Shown here: in pieces, positions 1 to 33,794 of the stretch | How the letters are laid out: every line of letters begins with the position of its first letter | Position numbering within the stretch: position 1 is the first letter of the stretch | Source of the DNA: Candidatus Dadabacteria bacterium | GTDB taxonomy: Bacteria; Desulfobacterota_D; UBA1144; Nemesobacterales; Mycalebacteriaceae | Assembly: GCA_026708565.1 (NCBI GenBank) | Contig: JAPOUR010000001.1 | Coordinates: 1 to 33,794 of the forward strand | DNA: 33,794 nucleotides | Direction: 5' to 3' | Notes under the pieces: model-generated | Database searches by the model: none | Seen by the model: the letters and a program-made list of their open reading frames with translations, nothing else | Told to the model about the DNA's origin: nothing | Position numbers and translations under genes: made by a program

Positions 1-359
1 ACCCGCTCATTCTCCTCAGTGGCAATCGCCACAAGGGAATGATCATCCCCTTTCTGAATTATGTGCATACTGCGGATATTAACCCCCGCATCTTTGAGTT
101 TGCCGGAAACCTCCGCAAGCGAACCCGGTTTGTTCTCAAGGCGCACAACCAGCGCATCCTCAGAAACCGCCTTGAAACCGGCATTGTTCAATATCTTTAA
201 CGCCTTGTCATAATTGTCGGTCGTCAAAATCACCGCGCCGTGCTCCTTTGAACCGCTGGTGTCAAGCCGCTCAATGTTTATGCCGTTCCCGGACAGAATG
301 CCGCTTATGTCCGCAATTACGCCTATCCTGTTGCCGCTTACCACCACTATCTGCTTCAT
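1..359 (-). CDS. Tandem ACT-domain protein (3' end cut by window edge)
   Basis: Reading the complement from 359, the ORF opens MKQIVVVSGNRIGVIADISG and stays open to base 1, giving about 119 residues. Two ACT-type units are visible. The first spans residues 1-68 and has the ligand-loop pattern GNRIGVIADISGIL. The second starts near residue 70 (LVVRLENKPGSLAEVSGKL) and runs to the edge. ACT domains bind small molecules, usually amino acids, and no catalytic domain is attached in the visible part, so this is probably a small regulatory or sensor protein. Its ATG overlaps the TGA of the upstream histidine decarboxylase by 4 nt (ATGA), so translation is probably coupled. An inferred role is sensing histidine or another amino acid for its partner. 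The C-terminus lies outside the window. Confidence 0.8.
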   Translation of the reverse strand, partial: MKQIVVVSGNRIGVIADISGILSGNGINIERLDTSGSKEHGAVILTTDNYDKALKILNNAGFKAVSEDALVVRLENKPGSLAEVSGKLKDAGVNIRSMHIIQKGDDHSLVAIATEENER

Positions 360-1537
360 TTTGACCCTCCCTTTTCCGGTTGCTTCAAATCGCCGGAAAT
401 CTCCCTTGCCGCCTCCGCCAGTTTCTCACGGCTCAAATGAGGCAGGGTGACAATGTGCGATATGTCATCCTTTGAAGCAAGTTGCCACTTGAACACAGTT
501 TTTTCAGACGGGCGCGGAAACACAACTATCGGTGAATTTTCATTTCTCCACGCCGCCACGCCGTTTTGCTTGAACTCCTTTATCAGAAAATCCGCGCTCT
601 CTATTGACCCCCGGACAAGTTTTTTCAATCCCCCGTCCCCGTAGCGCCGGACGGCATACCACAGCGCAAGCGGCGCAAAGGCGTTTCTTGAGCCGGTGAT
701 TGTGGTGTCAAGCGCGCCCACATATTCAATGTTGCGGGCTATAGTGTTTACCTTGTCCCTTTTTGCCAGAACAATGCCGCACGGAAACGGGCTGCCTATC
801 ATTTTGTGCCCGCTTACCGCCACGCTGTCCGCTCCGGCGGGAAAACCGAAAGGCGGCGGGTCTTCCACAAACGGCAGAATCATTCCGTGCAGCGCGGCGT
901 CACAATGGATGTATGAGTTTGTTATCGCAAATTCGGAAAGAATAAGCCGTATCTTCCCGATGTCATCCACCGCTCCGGTCATGGTAGTGCCGATGTTTGC
1001 CATTATAATCGCCGGGCGGTCTCTGTGAATGCGCACCGTCTCCCGCAGGTCTTCATAGTCAATTTCCCCGTTTTCACCCGCCCTTATCATTATGTGCCGC
1101 ATGTCCAGAAGACGCATTATCTTGGAGACGCTGTAATGCGTTTCCTCGGAAAAGTAAACCAGCGTCTCGCGCCCCATCAACTCTCTGGCGATATACAGGC
1201 CGTACATGTTTCCCTCTGTTCCCCCGCCCGTTATGTAGCCCCACCAGTTGTTTTCGGGGGCTTTTGTCATTTTTGCGAAAAAACGCACCATCTCGCGTTC
1301 TATTTCATGCGTGTTGACCCTGAAATTTGTGCCGCCAAAGGGGTCGCCCACATTGTTGATGGGAAACTCCAGAAAGCGGTGGAGTTCCGAATAATCAAAC
1401 GCCATGTTGCACGGATAGCCCGCGTGCGTGCTTCGCGCATCGGCCAGACCGCCGTAGAGGGCGTCCAGCCGCTTTTTGTCTTTTGCGCCAAGCGGTTTCG
1501 GATAGATGTCCGCGCCTGATTTTTTGGTTTTACCCAC
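356..1537 (-). CDS. hdc: PLP-dependent histidine decarboxylase (group II)
   Basis: The 393-residue product matches the bacterial pyridoxal-phosphate histidine decarboxylase family (histidine to histamine plus CO2), as I recall it from Morganella-type enzymes. Visible blocks are the N-terminal substrate segment GYP..FDY (40-49), INN.GDP (60-66), ITGGGTEGN (102-110), THYS with the PLP-stacking His134, ANIGTTMTGAVDDI (180-193), HCDAALHGMILPFV with Asp213 (211-224), SGHKMIGSP with the PLP lysine Lys245, and TITGSRN. Length is normal for the family. The start is GTG at 1537 with no Shine-Dalgarno. A TATATT hexamer lies 7 nt upstream, so a leaderless transcript is possible. The other close option would be a related L-amino-acid decarboxylase, but the SGHKMIGSP and ITGSRN blocks favour histidine. 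No siderophore or amine-export gene is adjacent. Confidence 0.85.
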   Translation of the reverse strand: MGKTKKSGADIYPKPLGAKDKKRLDALYGGLADARSTHAGYPCNMAFDYSELHRFLEFPINNVGDPFGGTNFRVNTHEIEREMVRFFAKMTKAPENNWWGYITGGGTEGNMYGLYIARELMGRETLVYFSEETHYSVSKIMRLLDMRHIMIRAGENGEIDYEDLRETVRIHRDRPAIIMANIGTTMTGAVDDIGKIRLILSEFAITNSYIHCDAALHGMILPFVEDPPPFGFPAGADSVAVSGHKMIGSPFPCGIVLAKRDKVNTIARNIEYVGALDTTITGSRNAFAPLALWYAVRRYGDGGLKKLVRGSIESADFLIKEFKQNGVAAWRNENSPIVVFPRPSEKTVFKWQLASKDDISHIVTLPHLSREKLAEAAREISGDLKQPEKGGSK

Positions 1538-1579: not shown

Positions 1580-2380
1580 TCACTTGAAAAGCCCGGAAAG
1601 GTCTTCTATCACATAGTCCGGCTTGTATTTGAACTTTTTCAGGTCTTTGCGCGATGATATTCCCGTGAGCGTGAGGACTGTCCCGACTCCCGCGCGGCGG
1701 CCCCCCCTTATGTCGGTTTTCATGCTGTCTCCGATGACGGCGGTTCTTTCGGGCGGCGAGCCGAGGATTTTCAGGCAAATCCTGAAGATGTCCGGATGCG
1801 GCTTTCCCGTTATGACGGGCTTTTTGCCCGCCACCTTCTCCACTGCGGCGGCAAGCGCCCCCGTTGCGGGCTTGAAGTCGCCGTCTCCGGACGGATAAAC
1901 AAAGTTTGAGTTGGTGGCTATGAAAACAGCCCCGTTTCTCACCGCCCGCCCCGCAGTGTCTATGTCCGCATAGCCAAAGCCCCCGTGCCCGCCTATCACA
2001 ACCGCATCACACCCCGCCGCCGCCTCTTTGTGATTGACAATCCGGACTCCGGTTTTGCGGACTTCCGAAAGCAGCGCCACGCTTCCCGACACAAAAACCC
2101 TCGCGTCTCCGCAGTTTTTGAACCTGCGCCTTATGTGGAACGCCGTTGAGGTTGCCGATGTGATTATCTCGCCCGGACGGGCGGCGATTCCCATTTTCTC
2201 AAGGTGTTTTGCCCACCCCGCCGCCGACCGCCGCGCGTTGTTGGTCACAAAAAGCAGCGGCTTTCCGGTCTTTCTCAGTTTTTTCAGCGCCGCCGCCGCG
2301 CGGGCGACCGGCTTTTCCCCGGACACCGCCGTTCCGTCAATGTCCGCAAGGAACGCGTCAAATCTGTCAACAATTCTCAT
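1580..2380 (-). CDS. HAD-superfamily class IIA phosphatase (NagD/PGP-like)
   Basis: A 266-residue HAD hydrolase if translation starts at MRIVDRFDAF (ATG at 2380). An in-frame ATG at 2416 would add 12 Arg/Pro-rich residues and overlap the upstream gene. Motif I is DIDGT (nucleophile Asp13, acid/base Asp15), motif II is VTNN (Thr46), the GKPHP segment supplies the motif III lysine, and motif IV is GDSMKTDI. The C2a-type cap lies between motifs II and III, as in NagD, AraL and phosphoglycolate phosphatases. The family dephosphorylates small sugar phosphates or nucleotides in the cytoplasm, and the actual substrate cannot be told from sequence. It sits inside the long minus-strand gene chain, 20 nt after the preceding stop and 42 nt before hdc. 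Confidence 0.85.
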   Translation of the reverse strand: MRIVDRFDAFLADIDGTAVSGEKPVARAAAALKKLRKTGKPLLFVTNNARRSAAGWAKHLEKMGIAARPGEIITSATSTAFHIRRRFKNCGDARVFVSGSVALLSEVRKTGVRIVNHKEAAAGCDAVVIGGHGGFGYADIDTAGRAVRNGAVFIATNSNFVYPSGDGDFKPATGALAAAVEKVAGKKPVITGKPHPDIFRICLKILGSPPERTAVIGDSMKTDIRGGRRAGVGTVLTLTGISSRKDLKKFKYKPDYVIEDLSGLFK

Positions 2381-2400
2381 GCGCGCCGCAGGACGGGGGG

Positions 2401-2730
2401 TCAGACATCCCCCCACATGGCGCGGGCAAGGCGGGCGCGCGCGTCGGGGTCCGCAGAGGAGGGAACAAGCGCTATCTTTTTTCCGCCGTCATCCTGAAAC
2501 ATCTCAACGCCCATAAACTTCAAAATGTCCGATGACGCCTCCCTGTAGCCCTCGTAAAACTTTTCATCCTCTCCCGAAGCCCTGACCGTCTGCATGTCCA
2601 GAAACAGCGCCACCGCCGCAAACTCCCGCGCAACGGCGGGGTCTATCTCAAGAGTGTATTCCGCCAGAGGCCCGTTCAGCATGAATTTTTTCCACCTGTC
2701 AACCGCCTTTTTGAAACGCTCCTCGGTCAT
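2401..2730 (-). CDS. Small protein of unknown function
   Basis: A 109-residue, probably soluble and mostly helical protein with no signal peptide, membrane segment or motif that I recognise. The N-terminal half is amphipathic (MTEERFKKAVDRWKKFMLNG) and the middle is rich in Asp and Glu. Its ATG overlaps the TGA of the mannose-type EIIA gene by 4 nt (ATGA), so it is translationally coupled and real. In many relatives of this cluster HPr (ptsH) follows the EIIA gene. This protein has no phospho-His HPr motif and is not HPr. A role with the phospho-relay proteins is only inferred from position. Confidence 0.7.
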   Translation of the reverse strand: MTEERFKKAVDRWKKFMLNGPLAEYTLEIDPAVAREFAAVALFLDMQTVRASGEDEKFYEGYREASSDILKFMGVEMFQDDGGKKIALVPSSADPDARARLARAMWGDV

Positions 2731-9788: not shown

Positions 9789-10986
9789 TGCGGGTCTCCT
9801 CCTGAAATTGCGGATTATATCCTATTGCCCGCCCGGCGCGCGCCACCTCCGCAATGACGGGGTTTGCGACAAGCAGCCCCTTTTCCGTAATTCTGACGGT
9901 TTCCCCCTCCCGTTCTATCAGCCCTCCGCTCCGCAGGCGCTCAAGGGCGGCGGCGTCCGTCCGGACGCCGAATTTCTTCTCCGCAAGCGCAAGGTTCATT
10001 CCACCGGCGAGGCGAAGCCCCATCATCACATTGTCCGAAAAGCCGGTTTCAGGGTCAAGGATTTCCGTCCGCGCCCGCCGCCTGTGCCGCGCCGCCTCCA
10101 TGTATTGCTCCGGATTTCGCGGGTTTGCCCACCTGACTCCAAAAGGGGCGTCCGCCGTTGTCATGTGAGAGTGCGCCCCCGCGCCGAGGCCTATGTAGTC
10201 TCCCGAAAGCCAGTAATTGATGTTGTGCAGGCAGCGGGTCTGCGGAGTGGAAAAACTTGAGATTTCGTAACGTTCAAACCCTCGCGACTGTAACACGCCC
10301 GCCGCAAGTGAAGCCATTTCCGCCGCCTCGTCATCGGACGGCAGGGTTATCCCCCCGCTTTTCCGCAGCGAGTAAAAGCGCGTGCCCCTTTCAACTTCAA
10401 GCCCGTAAACCGAAAAGTGGTTTGCTCCGGTGTCCGCCGCCAGCCGTATGTCGCGTTCAAACCGCTCCGGTGTTTCCTCCGGGGCTGCGGCGATAATGTC
10501 AACGCTTATGTTCTCAAATCCCGCCGCCTGCGCCGCGGCGACCGCTTCAAAACACCGCCCCGCCCCGTGGTCTCTGCCGAGGATTTTCAGTTTTTCCGGA
10601 AGAAAGGACTGCGCCCCTATGCTTATGCGGTTTATGCCCGCTGTGCGGAGGGATTCCAGTTTTTCCCGCCCGCATGAGAGCGGGTGCGCCTCAAGCGAGA
10701 TTTCGGTTTCGTCCGCCGTTTTCCAGTGTTTTGACGCATATTTTAGAATGCGGCGGACGGCATTGCCCGACATAAGGGAAGGCGTTCCTCCGCCGATAAA
10801 GATGGTTGTGACCTTGTAGTCGCCCCCCGCGGCTTGCGCGACCGCCTCCGCCTCGCGGGCTATGCAGTCCGCGTAGGCGGTTTCGTCAAAGGTTGAACTT
10901 TCCCACGCATTGAGGTTGCAGAAGGGGCATTTGACGGCGCAGTAGGGGAAGTGGATGTAGACGGAGAGGGGTTTGGGGGCGGGCAT
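9775..10986 (-). CDS. hemW: HemW-like radical SAM protein
   Basis: A 403-residue radical SAM protein read from [16 protein letters not shown] (ATG at 10986). The open frame extends further upstream but into the divergent promoter region. The [4Fe-4S]-SAM motif is CxxxCxxC (Cys16, Cys20, Cys23) in the block [18 protein letters not shown] and ISIGAQSF match the SAM-binding strands. The [15 protein letters not shown] block and a C-terminal winged-helix part ([20 protein letters not shown]) match HemW, the haem chaperone long misannotated as oxygen-independent coproporphyrinogen oxidase. A true HemN would start longer and carry a different first-cysteine context. It heads the long minus-strand chain and is divergent from tolC. 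Confidence 0.88.
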
Positions 10987-11043
10987 GCGGGGGAGTTTAA
11001 CACAGGGGGCGGGGGGAGACACCGGCAACCCGCCGCGCTCTTG

Positions 11044-11052
11044 TGCTATAAT
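11044..11052 (+). promoter_or_regulatory. Extended -10 promoter of the tolC-macA-like operon
   Basis: TGCTATAAT combines the consensus -10 hexamer TATAAT (11047-11052) with an upstream TG extension. No good -35 lies at the usual distance, which is common for extended -10 promoters. The expected transcript start is near 11059, giving a leader of about 25 nt with GGAGG (11077-11081 region) just before the ATG at 11084. Confidence 0.6.
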
Positions 11053-11083
11053 TAACCCGCCTTTAAACCGCCGCCGGAGGAAT

Positions 11084-12403
11084 ATGACCGCTCCTTTTCC
11101 AAACCCCATATTTGCCGCTTTCAAGCGGGCGCTTCTCCCGCCGCTTCTGGTTGCCGCGCTCGCTCTGCTTGCCGCGCCGCCCGCCGGGGGGCGGACGCTT
11201 TCGCTTGAAGAGGCGGAGGGCATGGCGGTTAACGCCAGCCTTGAGGTGCGGCTTGCCGGAACGGAGGTCAGGATGAGCGAGGGGCGGCGGCGGGAGGCGT
11301 CCTCGCGCTACTATCCCAACATCCGGGCGCGGATTATCCCCAATGTCCGGAAGGGGTTTGAACTGGATTTTCTGGAAAGGGAATCCGGCTTCTTTGCCGA
11401 CCAGATTCTCTGGGATTTCGGACGCACAAGAAACCGCGTCAAAGCGCGGCGCGGCCTTGTCAAGGCGGCGAAGATGTCAAAAGAGGACGCCGAAAGAGAC
11501 GCCGTCCGCCGGGCTCGCAAGGCGTTTTTTCTGGTCATTCTGGAAGAGGCGCGCCTCTCTTATGCGGAAAAAAGCCACGGCCTCTCCGGGATGAGACTTG
11601 AAAGAAGCAGGATTCTTGAAAGAAACGGGCGCATATCAAACCTTGAACTCGCCGAGCAGGAGTCCGAGGAAAGGAGCACGCTGTTTGAAAAACGGAGAGC
11701 GGAAAACGCCGTTGAAGCCGCCCGCTTTGAACTCTTTCAACTTCTCGGTCTGGAGGGCGAAAACAACATCACGCTTGAATCTCCGGAGGATTTGGAGTTT
11801 GAAGCCCGCCCCGCCGGTGAGATAGTCGCCTCCGCCCTCAAAGGCAACGCCCGCCTGCGGGGTTTGACGGAGCGGCTGAAGAGCGATGAGGCAAACGTCC
11901 GCGCCGCGCGCGCCGAATACCTGCCCGTGATTTACGGAAGGGTCGCCTACAGGTTTGAGGGGGAGGGCGCGGATGAGGAATCAAGAAGTTTTATTGCGGG
12001 CGCGGGCGCGACCGTGCCGATCTTTGAAGGGTTTTCCCGTCCGGCAAAGGTGGAGCGGATGCGAGCCGCTCAAAAGAACACGGAGATAAAGATCGCCCTT
12101 GAGCGGCAGCATCTTGAGAGAGACATCAGGCGGCTGCTGCTTGAGATCACCCACGCCGATGCGAACATAATGCTCAGCAGGCAGGTTCTGGGCACGGCGC
12201 AGGAGAAGTTGATACTCGCCCGCGAGAAGGAAAAACTGGGCGCGGGCTCAATACTGGACCTGAAATTTGCCGAAAAAGAATATGCAAAATTTTACCTCAA
12301 ATATGAGGAATCGGTGTATAATAGAAGGGTGTTGCTTGTGGATTTGATGTTTCTTGTCGGCGGTCTTCCGCCCGGAGAGACGGAGAAAGGGGGTGAAAAT
12401 TGA
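11084..12403 (+). CDS. tolC: TolC-family outer-membrane efflux channel
   Basis: A 439-residue outer-membrane factor. The start is the ATG at 11084, preceded by GGAGG at 3 nt. It gives a signal peptide with a basic segment (FKR) and a hydrophobic core (LLPPLLVAALALL) ending near APPAGG. The mature part begins LSLEEAEGMAV, as TolC proteins do, and shows two long helical repeats typical of the periplasmic alpha-barrel (about 130-240 and 330-430), rich in Arg, Glu and Ala, with intervening beta-barrel strands. It trims the outer-membrane end of a tripartite exporter. It overlaps the adaptor gene by 4 nt (TTGA), so the two form an operon. Confidence 0.92.
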   Translation: MTAPFPNPIFAAFKRALLPPLLVAALALLAAPPAGGRTLSLEEAEGMAVNASLEVRLAGTEVRMSEGRRREASSRYYPNIRARIIPNVRKGFELDFLERESGFFADQILWDFGRTRNRVKARRGLVKAAKMSKEDAERDAVRRARKAFFLVILEEARLSYAEKSHGLSGMRLERSRILERNGRISNLELAEQESEERSTLFEKRRAENAVEAARFELFQLLGLEGENNITLESPEDLEFEARPAGEIVASALKGNARLRGLTERLKSDEANVRAARAEYLPVIYGRVAYRFEGEGADEESRSFIAGAGATVPIFEGFSRPAKVERMRAAQKNTEIKIALERQHLERDIRRLLLEITHADANIMLSRQVLGTAQEKLILAREKEKLGAGSILDLKFAEKEYAKFYLKYEESVYNRRVLLVDLMFLVGGLPPGETEKGGEN

Positions 12404-13512
12404 AACTGTTTGACAATACATTTGCCATGTTTGGCGCGATGAGCGGTCGGCTTCGCCTCGCCGTTCTTGCCGTTCTTGCCTTATCTCTGTGGGTCGGCAT
12501 GTCTCTGCGGGAGGGCTCCACGCAATACGTTATCAGGACGGTTTCGGTGGGCAGTGTTGTTTCCACCATAACCTCGGTCGGAACTCTCAAGCATTTTGAG
12601 GAGATTGAAATACACAGTTCAATCCCCGGCACGGTTACCGAGGTGCTCAAAGACAGGAGCGAGCAGGTTGCCAAAGATGACGTTCTCGTCCGTCTTGACG
12701 CCACCGCGCTGAAATCGCGCTACGAAAAGGCGCGGGCGGAGTTTGAAACCGCCGAGGCGGACTTCAAATACCAATCGGAACTTTACGAAAAACGCCTCAC
12801 CTCCGCCAATGACTACAACAAAGCGCGCATTGCCACCGAACAGACGCGGGCGGAGTTTGCCGAAGCCGAAAGAATGCTCAAGGCGACCGAGATAAAGTCT
12901 CCCATTGAGGGGACGGTCATCCACCGCTCGGTTGAGGTGGGGCGCTCCGTTGACAACACGGGCGGGATGCTTATGAAGGTGGCGGGAAGCCCCGACCGTA
13001 TGAGGCTTCTTATCCGCGTCAGCGAGGCGGACATAGGGCGCATTGCCGAAGGGCAGATGGTTCTGTTCACCGTTCCGGCTTTCAGAAACCAGACATTCAC
13101 CGGAGAGATACTCTCCGTTCCCGGCGCCCCGCTTGATGACAAGGGCGCGGTCGCCTACGAGGTTATGGCGTCCGTTGAAAACAAAGACCACACGCTTAAA
13201 TCCGGCATGACGGCGGATGTGACGGTAAGAATAGCGCGGGTTGACGATGTTGTCCGCGTTCCCACCTCCGCGCTCCGGTTTCTGCCTTCGGACGGCTCGG
13301 CGCACGCTTCGGGTTCCGCCGTCTGGGTAAGGGCGGTTACGGGCGAGTTAAGGCGCATTCCCGTTGCTGTGGGAGAGAGCAATGAGATATATGCGGAGAT
13401 CACGGCCGGGGAGATAACCGAGGGCGACAAGGTGGTTGTCGGCGTTGTTTCGGCGGGGGCCGGAGAGGAAGACAGCGGAGGCATGTCTCTGCCGCAGCCA
13501 AAACGTTTTTAA
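12400..13512 (+). CDS. MacA/HlyD-family periplasmic adaptor
   Basis: A 370-residue membrane fusion protein. The start is TTG at 12400, preceded by AGGGGGTG and overlapping the tolC stop. One N-terminal membrane segment (about 19-36, LRLAVLAVLALSLWVGMSL) anchors it in the inner membrane. The first half-lipoyl strand (FEEIEIHSSIPGTVTEV), an alpha-hairpin (about 105-165) and the second half (IKSPIEGTVIHRSVEVGRSV) follow, then a beta-barrel domain and a membrane-proximal domain. This order matches MacA-type adaptors, which join TolC to an ABC transporter. The next gene is an ABC ATPase, consistent with a MacAB-like exporter, although the permease is missing. Confidence 0.92.
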   Translation: MKLFDNTFAMFGAMSGRLRLAVLAVLALSLWVGMSLREGSTQYVIRTVSVGSVVSTITSVGTLKHFEEIEIHSSIPGTVTEVLKDRSEQVAKDDVLVRLDATALKSRYEKARAEFETAEADFKYQSELYEKRLTSANDYNKARIATEQTRAEFAEAERMLKATEIKSPIEGTVIHRSVEVGRSVDNTGGMLMKVAGSPDRMRLLIRVSEADIGRIAEGQMVLFTVPAFRNQTFTGEILSVPGAPLDDKGAVAYEVMASVENKDHTLKSGMTADVTVRIARVDDVVRVPTSALRFLPSDGSAHASGSAVWVRAVTGELRRIPVAVGESNEIYAEITAGEITEGDKVVVGVVSAGAGEEDSGGMSLPQPKRF

Positions 13513-13526
13513 TCCGCGCTTTCCGC

Positions 13527-14204
13527 ATGCCGTCCCCGAAACCGGTAATAGCCCTTTCGGAAATTGAAAAGTCATACCTTTCTGGCGATGAGCCCGTGCG
13601 GGTTTTGCGCGGCGTTTCTCTGGACATCTTTGCGGGCGACCTTATAGGCATTGTCGGCTCTTCGGGTTCGGGCAAAAGTACCCTGATGAACATACTGGGC
13701 CTTCTGGACATTCAGGACAGCGGTGGCTACCGGTTTGAGGGGCGGGAGGTTTTGTCTCTTTCCGCCGGTCAGTTGTCCGAGATCAGGCGGGAGCGCATAG
13801 GGTTTGTATTTCAGAGTTTCAACCTGCTTTCGCGCTCAACCGCGCAGGAAAATGTGGAACTTCCCCTGATGTACGGGGGCGTTTCCCCGGCAAAGAGGCG
13901 GCGGCGCGCCCTTGAGATGCTCGCCTCGGTCGGGCTGTCCGACAGGAGCGCCCATATGCCGTCCCAGCTTTCCGGCGGGCAGCAGCAGAGGGTCGCCATA
14001 GCGCGGGCTCTGTGCGCGGACCCGGCGGTGATTCTCGCGGACGAGCCCACCGGAAACCTTGACAGCAAAAACACCCTTGAGATTATGGACCTTCTGGGGC
14101 GGGTCAACGAGGAGGGAACAACGGTTGTGATGATCACCCACGAAAAGGATGTTGCGGACTCCTGCCGGAGGGTTGTCGCGATGAGGGACGGGAAGATAGT
14201 GTGA
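13527..14204 (+). CDS. MacB/LolD-type ABC transporter ATPase, ATPase domain only
   Basis: A 225-residue nucleotide-binding subunit. Walker A is GSSGSGKST (44-52), the Q-loop is Gln96 in FVFQSFNLL, the ABC signature is LSGGQQQR (148-155), Walker B is VILADEPTGNLD (168-179) and the switch His is His205 in MITHEKD. The QSFNLL and DEPTGNLD forms are typical of the MacB/LolD/FtsE class. MacB proper continues into a membrane domain of about 400 residues, but this protein stops right after the ATPase, and the next gene (4-nt GTGA overlap) is not a permease. The partner FtsX/MacB-type permease must be elsewhere in the genome or lost. Confidence 0.93.
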   Translation: MPSPKPVIALSEIEKSYLSGDEPVRVLRGVSLDIFAGDLIGIVGSSGSGKSTLMNILGLLDIQDSGGYRFEGREVLSLSAGQLSEIRRERIGFVFQSFNLLSRSTAQENVELPLMYGGVSPAKRRRRALEMLASVGLSDRSAHMPSQLSGGQQQRVAIARALCADPAVILADEPTGNLDSKNTLEIMDLLGRVNEEGTTVVMITHEKDVADSCRRVVAMRDGKIV

Positions 14205-27109: not shown

Positions 27110-27145
27110 GAGATGGCTGAAAACAGATTTACAGGAGGTTTTGCT

Positions 27146-28276
27146 GTGACAGGTCACCCGCAAGTATTAGTTGACGAGCAAGAGATTCGCCTTGACGGAG
27201 ATGACACGAGTAGCGGTCAGGTCAACATAACAGAACCGTTTGACCCTACCAAAATCAGAGTTGAGACGAAAAACGCGCAGATGGACGCTCTCATCAAGCG
27301 GATCAAAAACGATGAGATTGATCTCAGTCCGGACTTTCAGCGTCAGGCCGTATGGAAAAATGAGGCAAAGAGCCGACTGATAGAATCTATGCTGATTAGG
27401 ATTCCGTTGCCCGCTTTTTACATGGATGCGAGCGATGACAGCAAGTGGCTGGTGGTGGACGGACTGCAACGTCTTACCGCAATCAAGGAGTTTGTTGTGG
27501 ACGGGTCGTTGTCCTTGACCGGATTGGAGTTTTTAACCGAGTATGATGGGGAAACATTCAGTGAACTCCCCCGCAGTTTGCAGCGCCGTATAGAGGAAAC
27601 AGACATTGTGCTGTATCTAATCCAGCCCCAAACGCCGCCAAAGGTGAAGTTTGATATATTCCGCCGAATCAATACCGGAGGCGAACCGTTGAGTTTACAG
27701 GAGATTCGCCATGCTCTTAATCAGGGAAAGGTCACGAAACTCCTGCCCCGTATGGTCAGTAACGAATTTAAGAGAGCCACGGCCCGAGGGGTATCTCCCA
27801 TACGAATGGATGACCGTGAGTGTGCGTTGCGATTTCTCGCCTTTACCTTGCATTCTCCGGATGACTACGAGGAAGATAACTTTGACCTGTTTCTCAACAA
27901 TACCATGTCCAAATTGAACGAGATGGACGACCTCAAGTTAAAAGGCTATGAAGAGTTGTTCAAAAAGACAATGGAGTGTGCCTGTTCAGTTTTCGGGGAC
28001 AGGGCTTTTCGTAAACAATACGAAGGTGTTGAACATCGTCACCCTGTGAACAAGGCGCTGTTTGAGGCGTGGAGTGTGAACATAGGGAGGCTGAGCGATG
28101 ACGAGCGACAGACCCTTATGGAAAAACGTGATGTACTGGTGGATAAATTCAAGAATTTGATGGATTCCGACAAAACCTTTGAATCCTCCGTTTCATACGG
28201 GACCGGATCAAAAAAGAATGTCCGCTACCGCTTCAACCGGATAGCCGAAATCATTCAAGAGACAATCAATGATTGA
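27146..28276 (+). CDS. DUF262 (ParB/GmrS-like) domain protein, island gene 1
   Basis: A 376-residue protein from GTG 27146, chosen because a perfect AGGAGG (27133-27138) sits 7 nt upstream. The in-frame ATG at 27113 has no good site. The DUF262 core is clear: IDLSPDFQRQAVW (59-71), the VVDGLQRLTAI motif (103-113, DGxQR) and DIFRRINTGGEPLSLQEIRHAL (170-191). DUF262 has a ParB/sulfiredoxin-like fold that binds or cleaves nucleotides and DNA in GmrSD- and SspE-type defence proteins. Here the C-terminal half is helical and no DUF1524 HNH nuclease motif is visible. The gene has lower GC than its flanks and overlaps the downstream ATPase gene by 8 nt. Confidence 0.88.
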   Translation: MTGHPQVLVDEQEIRLDGDDTSSGQVNITEPFDPTKIRVETKNAQMDALIKRIKNDEIDLSPDFQRQAVWKNEAKSRLIESMLIRIPLPAFYMDASDDSKWLVVDGLQRLTAIKEFVVDGSLSLTGLEFLTEYDGETFSELPRSLQRRIEETDIVLYLIQPQTPPKVKFDIFRRINTGGEPLSLQEIRHALNQGKVTKLLPRMVSNEFKRATARGVSPIRMDDRECALRFLAFTLHSPDDYEEDNFDLFLNNTMSKLNEMDDLKLKGYEELFKKTMECACSVFGDRAFRKQYEGVEHRHPVNKALFEAWSVNIGRLSDDERQTLMEKRDVLVDKFKNLMDSDKTFESSVSYGTGSKKNVRYRFNRIAEIIQETIND

Positions 28277-29375
28277 CTCCATGCGCATCAAAAACTTCAA
28301 GTGCTTCAGGGATGAATCTGTTTCCCTAAAGCCGCTGACAGTGCTTTCCGGTATAAACGGCATGGGCAAGAGCACTTTTATACAAATCCTGTTGTTTTTG
28401 CGACAATGGGGGTTTCAGTTGTCCGGCGACAATCACGCCAGAGCAAATTTGAACGGGCCTCTTGTCAACTTTGGCTATACGGAAGATGTGTTGCATGAGA
28501 AGGCTGAAGAAAAAGGGGAAGACATCATTCTTGCCATAGGTGGAGACGGGAGCGAGAAAGAATACCGTTTCAGTTGTCCGGATGGGGAAAAATGGATTGA
28601 AAGCCTCTCCGGCAAGCCTTTGGATACAAGCGATAGTCTTTTAGGGGAAAGTTTCTATTATCTTGGAGCTGAAAGAATCGGTCCGCGGTTGTCTTTCCTG
28701 TCATCTAATCTTGGAGGCGGGGAGAAAAGAATCAATGCAATAGGAAACAGCGGCGAGTATTGCGCATGGCTGTTAGCTAATGCTGAACGGGATAGTGTTG
28801 AGAATGACTCGCGGATTCATCCCGATGAATCTATATATGAATTGAGGGCGCAAGTTGAGGCATGGCTGTCAGAGATTGGCCAATCCGCCAGAATACACCT
28901 TAACAACCACAAGGATATGGACAGGGTAAGCCTCCAGTTTTCTTTCGTTCGTGACCGCATCACCAGTCGTTATTACCGCCCCACTAATGTGGGATTCGGC
29001 CTTACCTATGCGCTCCCAATCTTTGTTGCCGGTTTGCTTTCAAAGAAAGGAGGTCTGGTAATCATAGAAAATCCTGAGGCACATTTGCACCCGAAAGGTC
29101 AGTCCGTTCTGGGAAAATTTCTTTCAGGAGTGGCGAATAGCGGAGTTCAAGTCATTGTGGAGACTCATAGCGACCATCTGTTGAACGGCATCAGGATTTC
29201 TGCAAAAAACGGAGAAATAGATTCGGAATCTGTGGCTCTGCACTTTTTTCAGAGAGATGAGGGGGACCAGTCCACCAAGATAGTCACGCCAAAAATGGAC
29301 AAAAATGGCCGCTTGGATGAATGGCCTGAAGGATTTTTTGACGAATGGGAAAGCAGCCTGACAGAATTGCTGTAG
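28269..29375 (+). CDS. AAA/ABC-like ATPase with DUF3696 tail (COG4938 type), island gene 2
   Basis: A 368-residue predicted ATPase of the RecF/SMC-like ABC class. The N-terminus IKNFKCFRDESVSLKPLTV is followed by Walker A SGINGMGKST (27-36, Lys34). The signature-like block is NVGFGLTYALPI (240-251), Walker B is LVIIENPEAHLHP (263-275) and the switch is VETHSDHLL (297-305). The last 25 residues (KNGRLDEWPEGFFDEW) are the DUF3696 end. No TOPRIM or nuclease domain is attached, unlike OLD or GajA proteins. The start is ATG 28269, overlapping the DUF262 stop. ATG 28281 (MRIKNF) is also possible. Related ATPases occur in several defence systems, usually energising or gating a partner effector. Confidence 0.9.
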   Translation: MIDSMRIKNFKCFRDESVSLKPLTVLSGINGMGKSTFIQILLFLRQWGFQLSGDNHARANLNGPLVNFGYTEDVLHEKAEEKGEDIILAIGGDGSEKEYRFSCPDGEKWIESLSGKPLDTSDSLLGESFYYLGAERIGPRLSFLSSNLGGGEKRINAIGNSGEYCAWLLANAERDSVENDSRIHPDESIYELRAQVEAWLSEIGQSARIHLNNHKDMDRVSLQFSFVRDRITSRYYRPTNVGFGLTYALPIFVAGLLSKKGGLVIIENPEAHLHPKGQSVLGKFLSGVANSGVQVIVETHSDHLLNGIRISAKNGEIDSESVALHFFQRDEGDQSTKIVTPKMDKNGRLDEWPEGFFDEWESSLTELL

Positions 29376-29384
29376 GATGATTTC

Positions 29385-30335
29385 ATGGATCAGATATTCA
29401 ATGAACTTTCCGCCAATGGTAGTTACGATTCAAAATACAGCGCCTGTGCGGGTATGGAGAATCTTGCGTGCCTGTCTTTAGAGATGGCGAAGATTGGATT
29501 TAGCGGGAAACTGCGGACGGTTCAAAACTTCCACCAACTCCCCATTGCTCCTGACTTTACGATTTCTGATTGGGCTAATGAAAAGAAAGGGGTAGACAAG
29601 GAAAAACGACAATGGCTTCTTTTCTCCGCCACTCAGCATCCTTACATTGAGGATTTCATGGAGAAGGAGCAGGACAATAGTCTTGTAGAGTTCAAATTTG
29701 ACTGCAAGAAGTGTCTGGGTCTCGGTTTGGCATTTCTGTGGGATTGCGGCGCTCTTTCGCTGGATGGGGATGAGCGATTCAGGCAGGACGCTGTTGAGGC
29801 ATCTTTGTATCAGATTGACAGTAACGACAAGGAGTCTACGGAAACGGTGAAAATCCTGTCATGGTATTCACGGGAACAATTGCCTTCCATAAGAGATGTT
29901 CTTGTCAAAAGCGAGAGAAAATCCATATCAGACGGCGAGGGGTTGCTTTCAAAATCGTTGTCGCTATTTCCCGCGCTATCCATTGGTCAGAAAGCGTCTA
30001 AGCAATTACAAACTTTCAAAGGCAGTGAACAGCATTTTCAAGAAATTATCCGCCATTTTAGTGTGTTGAATGAAACAATGCGGAATTGGAAGTCTGGGCC
30101 GTTTGCTCCGCAGGGAGTAAGTTGGTCTCCTGAGTCTCAACCCACTATGGAACAATTTGCCAAAGAGCGCGAGTTTATATGTTCTGACAGAGAGAAGCGG
30201 ACATTCAGTCTTCACTCAAGGATTAGCTCCGCCAATGCCAATCTCCGCATTTACTTTCTCCCCGATACAAGTAATAAAACCGTCCATATCGGCTATGTCG
30301 GAACACACCTTCCTACGGTAAAACACAGGACCTGA
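29385..30335 (+). CDS. Protein of unknown function, island gene 3 (candidate effector or accessory)
   Basis: A 316-residue protein that I cannot assign to a named domain. It follows the ATPase by 9 nt with AGGATG as ribosome site, so it belongs to the same operon. There is no signal peptide or membrane segment. Three parts can be seen. The N-terminal third ends in a PIAPDFTISDWANEKKGVDK block and a short ATQHPYIEDF motif. The middle (about 100-200) contains FKFDCKKCLGLGLAFLWDCGALSL, with Cys residues and a hydrophobic core. The C-terminal third has RTFSLHSRISSANANLRIYF and HIGYVGTHLPT. The basic R-x-Y-F plus GYVG.HL ending is compact and could be a small catalytic or binding unit, but no function is established. 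Confidence 0.85.
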   Translation: MDQIFNELSANGSYDSKYSACAGMENLACLSLEMAKIGFSGKLRTVQNFHQLPIAPDFTISDWANEKKGVDKEKRQWLLFSATQHPYIEDFMEKEQDNSLVEFKFDCKKCLGLGLAFLWDCGALSLDGDERFRQDAVEASLYQIDSNDKESTETVKILSWYSREQLPSIRDVLVKSERKSISDGEGLLSKSLSLFPALSIGQKASKQLQTFKGSEQHFQEIIRHFSVLNETMRNWKSGPFAPQGVSWSPESQPTMEQFAKEREFICSDREKRTFSLHSRISSANANLRIYFLPDTSNKTVHIGYVGTHLPTVKHRT

Positions 30336-31144: not shown

Positions 31145-33794
31145 TCAAAACCCAAACCGCAAACCCACATTGGCGCGGTATTCCATTATCTCCGAACCCA
31201 GAGAAACGGCGGCTTCGCCGAAAACTCCGCGCTCTTTGCCCCATGTGTACGAACCGCCCACACTCAAATCTCCGGCAATTGATTCAAGTTCACTGGTCAA
31301 ATTGTCAGTATGAGTACTGCTCCCCCTGCGGACTCTCACAGCCGTCTCGCCGTCCAGAGGGACGAGCAGGTTCAGCCCCGCGTAAACATTGCCTTTGCCC
31401 GCCTCACTGTCGCCGTATTCGCTTTCGCTTCCAAGCGCCTTTAACTCCTTGTCCACAAACACGCCCACACGCCCGGTAAGGGCTGCGCCGTCTTCAAGAG
31501 AGGCGGTTTCCGTGCCGAGTGTATTGCGGAAGTCGTCAAAATCCGCCGTAGTCCAGATTACCTGCGCCTGAGGGGTAACATTGACGCCGCTCAGGGGGTA
31601 GCGGTATCCCGCCTCTCCCGATACGCTGAAAGCGGTTGCGTCACTGCCGGAAACCGACAGTTGGGAGGAAGTCAGGTCGCTGGAAAAGAGGGCGTATTGA
31701 AACTGCCCGTCCGCGTAAAAGTTGCCCTGTTCCATAGTGGCGGTGGCGGCAACGGAGTAGCCGGTGGTTTCTATCTCGCCGTCTCCGGGCGCGATATCGG
31801 TGTTAGCCAGTCCGAACCAGACATTGCCTCCGAGTGTCAGCCCCTTCACTTCTTCAAAGGGATAGTCCGCGCCGAAGCGGATGCGTGTGTCTTGAATGTC
31901 ATACTCGCTTTTGGCTGTGGATACGCCCGGTTCAAACGAGGCGACAGACCCTTCAACCCGTCCCCATACGCCCACGCCTTTTTCGTCCTGCCAGACACGC
32001 CCCTCAAGACGCTGTTGCATTGAGGGAAGGGAGGAAAGTTGCGCAAGCGTTGCGGGGTAACTTTCTATTACTTTTCCGACATCGCCGAAGCCGTCTCTTA
32101 TGAAAGCACAAGCACCCGCCGCCGAGTCGCAGTTGAGTCTGAAAGCGTAGAATCCGGAGTCTGCGCTTCCGGTGAAATGGTTTGCCGCATTTGCCGCATC
32201 TGCGCCAAATAAGCTGATGACATTGTGAGTCCTCGCCGCCGCATTCGGGTTGCCGTGGATGATGAGGTCAATCGGGGTTGTGCCGGTTACCTCGTTGGTG
32301 ATGTTGAGGATTGAGAATCCTCCAGTCGCAAAGTTGGCGCTCATAACCAGCCGTCCGCCGTTGCCGGCATAGTTGCCGCTTATGGTAACACTCGCATCTT
32401 CATCAAGAAACAGAGCGCCATCGTCAAGGGAGAAACTTTCATCAACAGTTACCGAGCCGTCAATTGCCCATGTATTGGGTCCGGTTTTCCGCACTGTGTC
32501 AAAGCCGCTCAGTTGTCCCAAGTTAAACGAGGGGGTATTGGCGAACGGCGCGGTGGCGGCGGCAAGTTCAAATGTCGTGTTGTCTCCGGCTGCCGTTATA
32601 GCGCCTATGATATTTGCGCCCGGGCGCAGTCTGACCAGAGCGCTGTTGCTTGCGCCGGTGCGGACGGCGTGTTCGCCCCCTCTAACTGTTCCCGCAATAT
32701 CCACGACAATATCTCCGAGGTTTCCATTGCTTCTGCTGATTCCGGCAAAAATGCCTGTTCGCATGGCGGCGGGGGCATTGACCGATGCGCCCGGGGCAAC
32801 ATTAACTGTTATATCACCCGTGCCTTTATGATCCAGAGCGACGCCGCCTAAACTTGCGCTTGTGATGTTGCCGGTAACATCAATGTTCAGGGCGGAAGAG
32901 TTCACCCCCGTTCTGGCGTCAACGCCGCGCCCTATGGAAGTCCCGGTAGTGTTAATGTCTCCGCCGATGGTGATATTGAGGTCGCCTCTGGTGTCGTGTC
33001 TGGCGAGAATTCCGCCGCTTTGCGCAGAACCCGAAGCGTTGATGTTGCCCATCGCCATAATGTTCATGCCGCCCGGAGGATTGCCGGTGTGACCGATTGT
33101 GTTGGCGGCGGCGTCAATGCCCCAAGCGCCGGTTGTCATAATGTTGGCGTTGGGGGCGAGGAAGATTGACAGTTCGCCTCTGCCGAGATGCTCGGCTTTT
33201 ATGCCCAAACTTCCGCTTCTTATGTCGCCTGTGGCGTTGATGGTTACCGAGGACTGGCTTATGCCTGTGGTTTCCACATCAATGCCGTTATCCACAGCGT
33301 TGATATTGCCGCCGGAGTTAATTACCACCGCGCCCAAGCCCTGATGCCCGATGTAGATGCCCCGGTTTCCCGCCGTGATAGCGCCGGTGGCATTGACGGT
33401 TATGCTATCGGCGGCGGCGGTGGTAATTAAGTCAATGCCGTCCTGTGCGGCGTTGAGAGCCGCCGGAGTAGTTAATTGCCCCGTGCCATCAAGTATCTGC
33501 ACTCCGATGGCGTCTGTGCCTCTGGAGCTAACAGTACCGCCGATGGTGGCATCAAGACTGCCGCCCGGTACAGTAACCAGAGAGAGGGCTCTGCCTGTCG
33601 CTACATTCATACCGAAACCGGGTTCGGTGGTTACCACAAACCTCTCGCCATGAGTGGCGGAAGGGGATTGGGTCGTGTCCATAGTCGGGTCTGCCGCGCC
33701 GCTGCATGTCCATGCGCCGGGTGTGCCTGAGACTCGCTCACACATTCCCGCCGATGCCTTTTCGCCCGCGCCCGGAAACAGAGCCGTCCCCAGC
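31145..33794 (-). CDS. Autotransporter adhesin-type protein (5' end beyond window)
   Basis: The frame is open from the window edge to TGA at 31145, at least 883 codons. The first in-window Met is at 33745, but upstream codons continue in frame (ALFPGAGEKASAG), so the signal peptide lies outside. The passenger (about the first 590 residues) is a Gly/Asn/Thr-rich parallel beta-helix with repeated strands of the form SVTINATGDI.SG..GI and G.GDITV, alternating with AGI/IDA loops. The last 270 residues form the 12-strand beta-barrel (from GVWGRVEGSVASFEPG) and end YRANVGLRFGF with the terminal Phe needed for outer-membrane insertion. It is secreted by type Va and probably displayed on the surface. 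It converges on the crotonase gene with a 3-nt gap. Confidence 0.9.
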   Translation of the reverse strand, partial: LGTALFPGAGEKASAGMCERVSGTPGAWTCSGAADPTMDTTQSPSATHGERFVVTTEPGFGMNVATGRALSLVTVPGGSLDATIGGTVSSRGTDAIGVQILDGTGQLTTPAALNAAQDGIDLITTAAADSITVNATGAITAGNRGIYIGHQGLGAVVINSGGNINAVDNGIDVETTGISQSSVTINATGDIRSGSLGIKAEHLGRGELSIFLAPNANIMTTGAWGIDAAANTIGHTGNPPGGMNIMAMGNINASGSAQSGGILARHDTRGDLNITIGGDINTTGTSIGRGVDARTGVNSSALNIDVTGNITSASLGGVALDHKGTGDITVNVAPGASVNAPAAMRTGIFAGISRSNGNLGDIVVDIAGTVRGGEHAVRTGASNSALVRLRPGANIIGAITAAGDNTTFELAAATAPFANTPSFNLGQLSGFDTVRKTGPNTWAIDGSVTVDESFSLDDGALFLDEDASVTISGNYAGNGGRLVMSANFATGGFSILNITNEVTGTTPIDLIIHGNPNAAARTHNVISLFGADAANAANHFTGSADSGFYAFRLNCDSAAGACAFIRDGFGDVGKVIESYPATLAQLSSLPSMQQRLEGRVWQDEKGVGVWGRVEGSVASFEPGVSTAKSEYDIQDTRIRFGADYPFEEVKGLTLGGNVWFGLANTDIAPGDGEIETTGYSVAATATMEQGNFYADGQFQYALFSSDLTSSQLSVSGSDATAFSVSGEAGYRYPLSGVNVTPQAQVIWTTADFDDFRNTLGTETASLEDGAALTGRVGVFVDKELKALGSESEYGDSEAGKGNVYAGLNLLVPLDGETAVRVRRGSSTHTDNLTSELESIAGDLSVGGSYTWGKERGVFGEAAVSLGSEIMEYRANVGLRFGF

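Follow-up and report, generated by a model that had tools for sequence, protein, structure and literature searches.

The question raised by this locus is why a gene that carries the name of histidine decarboxylase overlaps the gene of a stand-alone ACT protein, and which amino acid such an enzyme would use. The window, that is, the whole stretch of 33,794 nucleotides analyzed here, corresponds to positions 1-33794 of the first contig of assembly G000 (1.57 Mb in 60 contigs; 95.9% complete, 0.05% contamination). The coordinates, strand and ATGA overlap given in an earlier note on this DNA are correct: the decarboxylase ORF runs from 1537 to 356 on the minus strand, starts with GTG and encodes 393 residues in an intact frame, and the ACT ORF follows from 359 to 3, with 119 readable residues and its 3' end cut off at the contig start. 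Full-length relatives of the ACT protein have about 130 residues. The features are:

3..359, minus strand: tandem ACT-domain gene, proposed regulatory subunit of the decarboxylase (Pfam, relatives and the model of relative L097)
356..359, minus strand: four-base ATGA overlap between the decarboxylase TGA stop and the ACT ATG start (read from the sequence)
356..1537, minus strand: group II PLP decarboxylase gene (Pfam and NCBIfam; clade from the tree)
722..724, minus strand: Tyr272 codon, predicted catalytic loop tyrosine (equivalent of AtSerDC Tyr341 in the excerpted text of PMC11407765)
803..805, minus strand: Lys245 codon, predicted PLP lysine (homologous to AtSerDC Lys314 in the excerpted text of PMC11407765)
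1409..1411, minus strand: Cys43 codon, the X of the YPX substrate-specificity motif (by alignment; Glu in histidine decarboxylases, Tyr in AtSerDC, Phe in CsAlaDC)
1580..2416, minus strand: HAD-family phosphatase gene, 42 bp upstream of the decarboxylase (Pfam; context, outside the pair)

Upstream of the pair lie the genes for enolase, LeuC, LeuD, HPF, a PtsN-like PTS IIA protein (76.6 bits, below the cut-off of 138.7), HPr kinase, RapZ, EIIA-man, a 109-residue ORF and the HAD phosphatase. In G001, a genome of the same genus, the nine genes from LeuC to HAD are found in identical order at 65-83% identity and are followed by other genes; the shared operon ends with HAD, and neither gene of the pair is present. 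The 109-residue ORF (2401-2730, minus strand) overlaps both of its neighbors in the RapZ/EIIA operon and has no Pfam or NCBIfam match, yet it is 80% identical in G001. The earlier note had also stated that no siderophore or amine-exporter gene is nearby. The first part of this statement stands, as a family scan of 27 window ORFs showed no siderophore gene, histidine/histamine antiporter or histidyl-tRNA synthetase. The second part needs qualification: TolC-like (83 bits, below its cut-off), HlyD-like and ABC ATPase genes lie in a row at 10973-14204 on the plus strand, a possible tripartite efflux set located 9.4 kb from the pair and on the opposite strand.

The coupling of the two genes, which the earlier note had proposed from this one locus, is real and widely conserved. 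Among the best 80 of 546 relatives in a species-genome collection (51-59% identity), the ACT gene lies directly downstream of the decarboxylase in 79 loci, a count that describes the nearest relatives since only the best-matching loci were taken; in the remaining locus, L105, the contig stops 14 bases past the decarboxylase ORF and the ACT gene is not visible. These best 80 come from Verrucomicrobiota, Planctomycetota, Chloroflexota including SAR202, Gemmatimonadota, Latescibacterota, Nitrospinota, Gamma- and Alphaproteobacteria, Lentisphaerota, Omnitrophota, Armatimonadota, Acidobacteriota and Cyanobacteria, with Brevifollis, Verrucomicrobium, Aliikangiella and Lyngbya among the named carriers. 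Because the arrangement recurs in 79 of 80 loci of other phyla, the coupling is far beyond chance. Within this set of 79, 36 have the -4 spacing seen in the window, 35 fall elsewhere between -14 and +33, six are wider (including L095, whose ACT frame is shifted), and in two the genes are fused. Counting one further case from a gammaproteobacterial sample (L116), there are three single-chain fusions, the other two being cyanobacterial (L061 and L106); only ORFs free of internal stops were counted as fusions. The ACT part of L106 scores below the Pfam thresholds and was recognized by tblastn (2.5e-16) and by its AF2 model, in which two ACT-like modules stand behind the decarboxylase, with low confidence for the linker and for part of the ACT region.

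A less selected check gave a consistent picture. We searched 868 sampled genomes for decarboxylase matches at E<=1e-40 and found them in 11 of 274, 9 of 194, 8 of 201 and 1 of 199 genomes, where each sample includes its centre genome, itself an already known carrier of the pair. The ACT gene is directly downstream or fused in all 21 of the 30 resulting loci that have at least 51% identity (nine of these 21 are genes already present in the best-80 set), and it is absent from the ~1.4 kb flank in all nine loci at 42% identity or less. The pair is therefore patchily distributed, present in at most a few per cent of genomes, yet the coupling is nearly obligate. Two of the sampled loci, L113 and L129, contain an in-frame TGA. 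One Chloroflexota-sample genome (G679) carries two pairs, L135 and L139, that belong to different subclades. In the Verrucomicrobiota-phylum sample, L124-L130 form a separate and more distant clade with YPF or YPI at the specificity motif and no ACT gene in the flank examined.

The two proteins also diverge in parallel. Pairwise identities of decarboxylase and ACT protein correlate with r = 0.78 across 79 rows, made up of the window and 78 loci with the frameshifted L095 left out, a value reached by none of 2000 permutations, whose maximum was 0.11. Correlated divergence of this kind implies that the two genes were inherited or moved together, and the pair has most likely been passed on as a unit, whether by descent or by transfer. 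When the ORFs of the best 80 loci were clustered, no neighbor beyond the pair and its antisense frames occurred in more than ten of them, so the pair appears complete in itself: a small and apparently self-contained cassette. The 30 proteins scanned near the pair belong to unrelated families or to none (among them HpaB, MOSC, acyltransferase, aminotransferases, an arginase-family protein at L039, an ornithine cyclodeaminase at L074); operon context was rejected as a guide to substrate, the neighboring families being unrelated and none of them conserved.

The ACT partner has two ACT stretches and matches Pfam ACT (5.4e-18) and ACT_8, the 'ACT domain pair'. The stand-alone tandem fold is thus assigned in the window by Pfam and in relative L097 by a structure model with a pLDDT of 88. 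The nearest solved relatives, both by sequence and by the L097 model, are BT0572 (2f06) and, more weakly, YdjB (9vp8), which align to the model with Z scores of 11.4 and 11.3 over 127 and 120 residues; the accompanying rmsd of 10-11 Å is read as a difference in domain angles. We know of no decarboxylase link for BT0572 or YdjB. A functional parallel is found in acetohydroxyacid synthase, where the ACT protein IlvH regulates the catalytic subunit IlvB in trans. Here too a separate small ACT protein accompanies a catalytic subunit, and the window protein matches Pfam ACT_AHAS_ss (5e-11); it differs from IlvH and IlvN in that its catalytic partner is a PLP decarboxylase and in that it falls far under the cut-off of the NCBIfam acetohydroxyacid synthase small-subunit models (29 versus 119 bits). 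The gene of an IlvH-type subunit is expected to adjoin that of its target enzyme or to be fused with it, and this is the arrangement in 79 of the best 80 of 546 loci and in one further fusion. A similar mode of action is reported for plant ACR11, an ACT-only protein that activates GS2 in trans according to the excerpted text of PMC6081435, although this protein is eukaryotic and its partner enzyme, glutamine synthetase 2, is unrelated.

We consider it probable that the pair is one regulated enzyme, made of a PLP decarboxylase and a dedicated ACT subunit, acting on a neutral amino acid and gained as a cassette at the end of an operon. Both proteins would be produced by coupled translation from what is presumably a shared transcript. 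The catalytic subunit would decarboxylate an L-amino acid to its amine with release of CO2, using standard PLP chemistry, while the ACT subunit, in presumed physical contact with it, would bind an amino acid, either the substrate or a related end product. In the ligand-bound state the ACT subunit would raise or lower the rate of the decarboxylase, as IlvH acts on IlvB, so that amine would be made only when the sensed amino acid is abundant or the need for it is covered. The gene pairing and its conservation suggest that the ACT protein probably controls the decarboxylase.

It is unlikely, in our judgment, that the ACT protein is no subunit of the decarboxylase and merely binds or senses an amino acid, being co-transcribed with the enzyme and travelling along with it. 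In favor of this reading, contact between the two proteins is a presumption, and one decarboxylase that nests in the ACT-coupled clade, from Vibrio campbellii (L018; NZ_CP050465.1, 6998-8158), has no ACT gene within 7 kb, from which it follows that the enzyme can do without its partner. However, the three single-chain fusions, the near-fixed adjacency and the correlated divergence favor a protein complex, and no domain other than ACT was matched in the ACT proteins of the window and of L097. The V. campbellii enzyme itself has Ile at the YPX position and adjoins a homocysteine S-methyltransferase gene, a weak hint of methionine.

To define what kind of enzyme the catalytic subunit of this regulated pair may be, we analyzed its family, its active-site residues and its place in a tree. 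The window protein matches Pfam PF00282 (Pyridoxal_deC) with 94.3 bits against a cut-off of 27 (8e-27). It was aligned with its relatives in 102 ACT-clade rows, which comprise the best 80 loci, 21 sampled loci and the window; nine genes are counted twice, and L105, whose ACT gene is not visible, is included. Lys245, the stacking His134 and Asp213, which faces N1, are present in the window and in all 102 rows, and Tyr272 in the window and in 101; the roles of these four residues are those described for plant enzymes in the excerpted text of PMC11407765. Two further positions set the clade apart. First, the residue after Tyr-Pro is Cys in 74 rows, Val in 16, Thr in 10, and Ser and Gly in one each, and it is Glu in all six histidine decarboxylases compared (Photobacterium 7erv and five plasmid-borne enzymes). 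Second, the residue after Gly-Asp is Pro in all 102 rows, in contrast to the Trp found in the same six enzymes. Neither the Glu nor the Trp occurs in any ACT-clade row. The sister of the six histidine decarboxylases, L019, keeps the Trp and has Val at the YPX position, so the Glu is not fixed in the whole branch.

The tree, a quick reconstruction of 126 proteins with long branches, was built from rows trimmed beforehand to a fixed length and leaves out L121, L148 and L149, in which the YPX motif is not clear. Before trimming, a few decarboxylase translations, among them those of L071 and L093, extended beyond their stop. The six histidine decarboxylases (Photobacterium 7erv and representatives from Klebsiella, Acinetobacter, E. 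coli and pJM1) form a branch with L019 at an SH-aLRT support of 98, and the window protein lies outside it. The ACT-coupled rows are also apart from the plant serine and alanine decarboxylases and their bacterial YPY relatives. Three changes of the label 'ACT pair' are needed on this tree, since the ACT rows are interspersed with L018 and with some actinobacterial rows on long branches; the Streptomyces and Micromonospora rows near the clade may be misplaced.

These results bear directly on the name of the enzyme. The NCBIfam 'histidine decarboxylase' model (the PRK02769 equivalog) is matched by the window protein with 456.7 bits against a cut-off of 305, but the same cut-off is passed by all ten proteins tested, the window protein included, among them a Rhizobium protein with the YPY motif of serine decarboxylases (L021) and a Streptomyces protein with Gly at that position. 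As all ten pass whatever their motif, the name does not discriminate, and by the sequence comparison 'histidine decarboxylase' is an over-general label for the ACT-coupled clade. The plasmid-encoded enzymes of Klebsiella (hdc) and Vibrio pJM1 are 42-44% identical to the window decarboxylase at 94-95% coverage and, like 7erv, resemble it in fold family, length, PLP residues and loop tyrosine. The window clade differs from them in lacking the Glu of YPE and the Trp of GDW, in forming a clade of its own, in its near-obligate ACT neighbor and, in the window, in having no antiporter or siderophore genes beside the decarboxylase.

A true histidine decarboxylase whose ACT partner senses histidine is clearly unlikely, even though three observations speak for it. 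The closest solved relative of the enzyme is the Photobacterium histidine decarboxylase 7erv (331 bits), the NCBIfam score is above the cut-off, and 2f06, the nearest solved relative of the ACT protein, is reported to have been solved with L-histidine, a lead that would favor a histidine sensor. Against it are the missing Glu and Trp in 102 of 102 ACT-clade rows, the well-supported separation from the histidine decarboxylase branch, the same NCBIfam name falling on relatives with a serine-decarboxylase motif, and a setting without the adjoining antiporter or HisRS gene of Klebsiella aerogenes. Thus the earlier note's identification of a histidine decarboxylase is not supported, whereas its suggestion of a different substrate is the better reading; the substrate is probably not histidine.

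Clues to the actual substrate come from plant enzymes. According to the excerpted text of PMC11407765, the residue following Tyr-Pro sets the substrate (Tyr111 in AtSerDC, Phe106 in CsAlaDC) and changing it switches or abolishes activity; serine activity is abolished in AtSerDC Y111V and Y111A, and the mutants described at this position include neither Cys nor Thr. Legume enzymes with YPT use Phe, Met, Leu and Trp, and plant YPT enzymes yield aldehydes and not amines (excerpts of PMC11407765 and PMC4177580). The similar size of Cys, Val and Thr, together with the lack of a common hydrogen-bonding role, suggests contact with a non-polar side chain. By this pocket residue, a larger neutral amino acid is more likely than histidine, serine or alanine, and the substrate is probably neutral, medium to large and mostly hydrophobic (the Leu, Ile, Val, Met, Phe, Thr class), an assignment resting mainly on one pocket position and transferred from distantly related plant enzymes. 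A remote relative, the Streptomyces L-methionine decarboxylase 7cif (3.8e-35), is named for a hydrophobic amino acid; it differs in its length of 557 residues and in having GYQ where the ACT-coupled clade has GYP.

Quite improbable is a bacterial serine or alanine decarboxylase that supplies ethanolamine or ethylamine under ACT control. The plant serine and alanine decarboxylases, the second-best solved family, have the PLP residues and the GDPF motif in common with the window protein, and GDPF/Y and mostly Trp351 are shared by the clade, the plant enzymes (AtSerDC, CsAlaDC; 8jik) and their bacterial relatives. The specificity residue, however, is mostly Cys, Val or Thr (Cys43 in the window) and not Tyr or Phe, and in AtSerDC replacement of this residue by Val or Ala removes serine activity; the bacterial YPY rows L021 and L138 fall elsewhere in the tree and are without ACT. 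The clade also differs from the plant enzymes in having an ACT partner. The plant zinc finger (three Cys and one His) is absent as well, the window protein having no Cys after residue 253, but this is a weak test for bacteria, since the finger is a plant feature in the excerpted text of PMC11407765. A search of 40 genomes that carry the pair found phosphatidylserine decarboxylase in 31; G000 and G001 both encode it, and in G000 phosphatidylethanolamine consequently needs no free ethanolamine; ethanolamine supply for this lipid was set aside as unnecessary here. Beta-alanine supply, with the enzyme replacing PanD, was likewise judged unnecessary, given PanD in G000, G001 and 23 of the 40 carriers (G000 included), and may apply to the 17 carriers that have no PanD match. 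L138 (G665, Chloroflexota sample) and L021 (on a Rhizobium plasmid), which group with the plant enzymes, are in their own right candidate bacterial serine decarboxylases.

We return to the regulated decarboxylase-ACT pair and to how it came to this locus. Of 57 genomes from the phylum, one, G000 itself, has a close homologue of the decarboxylase at E<=1e-50, and the other 56 have none. Any ACT match was found in four of the 57, those outside G000 at 31-36% identity, and remote PLP decarboxylases match at E<=0.001 in 16 of 60 genomes of the phylum, G000 included. This distribution fits a gain of the pair in this lineage, which we infer to have been horizontal and to have placed it behind the last gene of a native operon. 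The GC content is 52-54% over the pair and 58-60% in the next 3.7 kb, which is weak evidence because 53% recurs at 7.5-9 kb of the window in native genes. That a foreign 1.5 kb was joined to a native contig end in assembly or binning is very improbable: the pair does sit at the contig end, with a lower GC content than the adjoining DNA and no close homologue in the rest of the phylum, but it lies 42 bp behind HAD on the same strand, the expected site of an operon extension, its decarboxylase ORF is intact, its GC value is found again in native genes, and the assembly has the completeness and contamination given above; such an artefact would not touch the pairing observed across the family. An 83-base match of the window on contig C18 was taken as chance. 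No relative was found on viral contigs; in a phage collection eight records matched, the best at 44%.

No description of the decarboxylase-ACT pair was found in the open-licence literature, and to our knowledge a dedicated ACT subunit has not been described for any amino-acid decarboxylase. Each part is of a known kind, and the near-obligate combination is, as far as we have seen, undescribed. Control of amine production through a conserved ACT-sensor partner would be novel, comparable to the control of IlvB by IlvH. We put forward only tentatively, as somewhat less than an even proposition, the broader idea that this phylum-hopping cassette is an undescribed class of decarboxylase holoenzyme, with a main substrate new to the characterized family and a role in the regulated supply of a primary amine. 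If that were true, many mostly uncultured bacteria would now be wrongly annotated as histamine producers. In practice, the name 'histidine decarboxylase' in the many Verrucomicrobiota, Planctomycetota, Chloroflexota/SAR202, methanotroph and cyanobacterial genomes that carry it is not evidence of histamine production.

Two minor observations concern the far part of the window. An 866-residue ORF at 31145-33745 on the minus strand has no Pfam match at 1e-5. Before it, at 27113-30335 on the plus strand, lies a three-gene defence-like cassette with GmrSD_N and AAA_15/DUF3696 domains, whose products match PADLOC NsnA (477 bits), NsnB (387 bits) and NsnC (199 bits), names that we take to denote the Menshen system.
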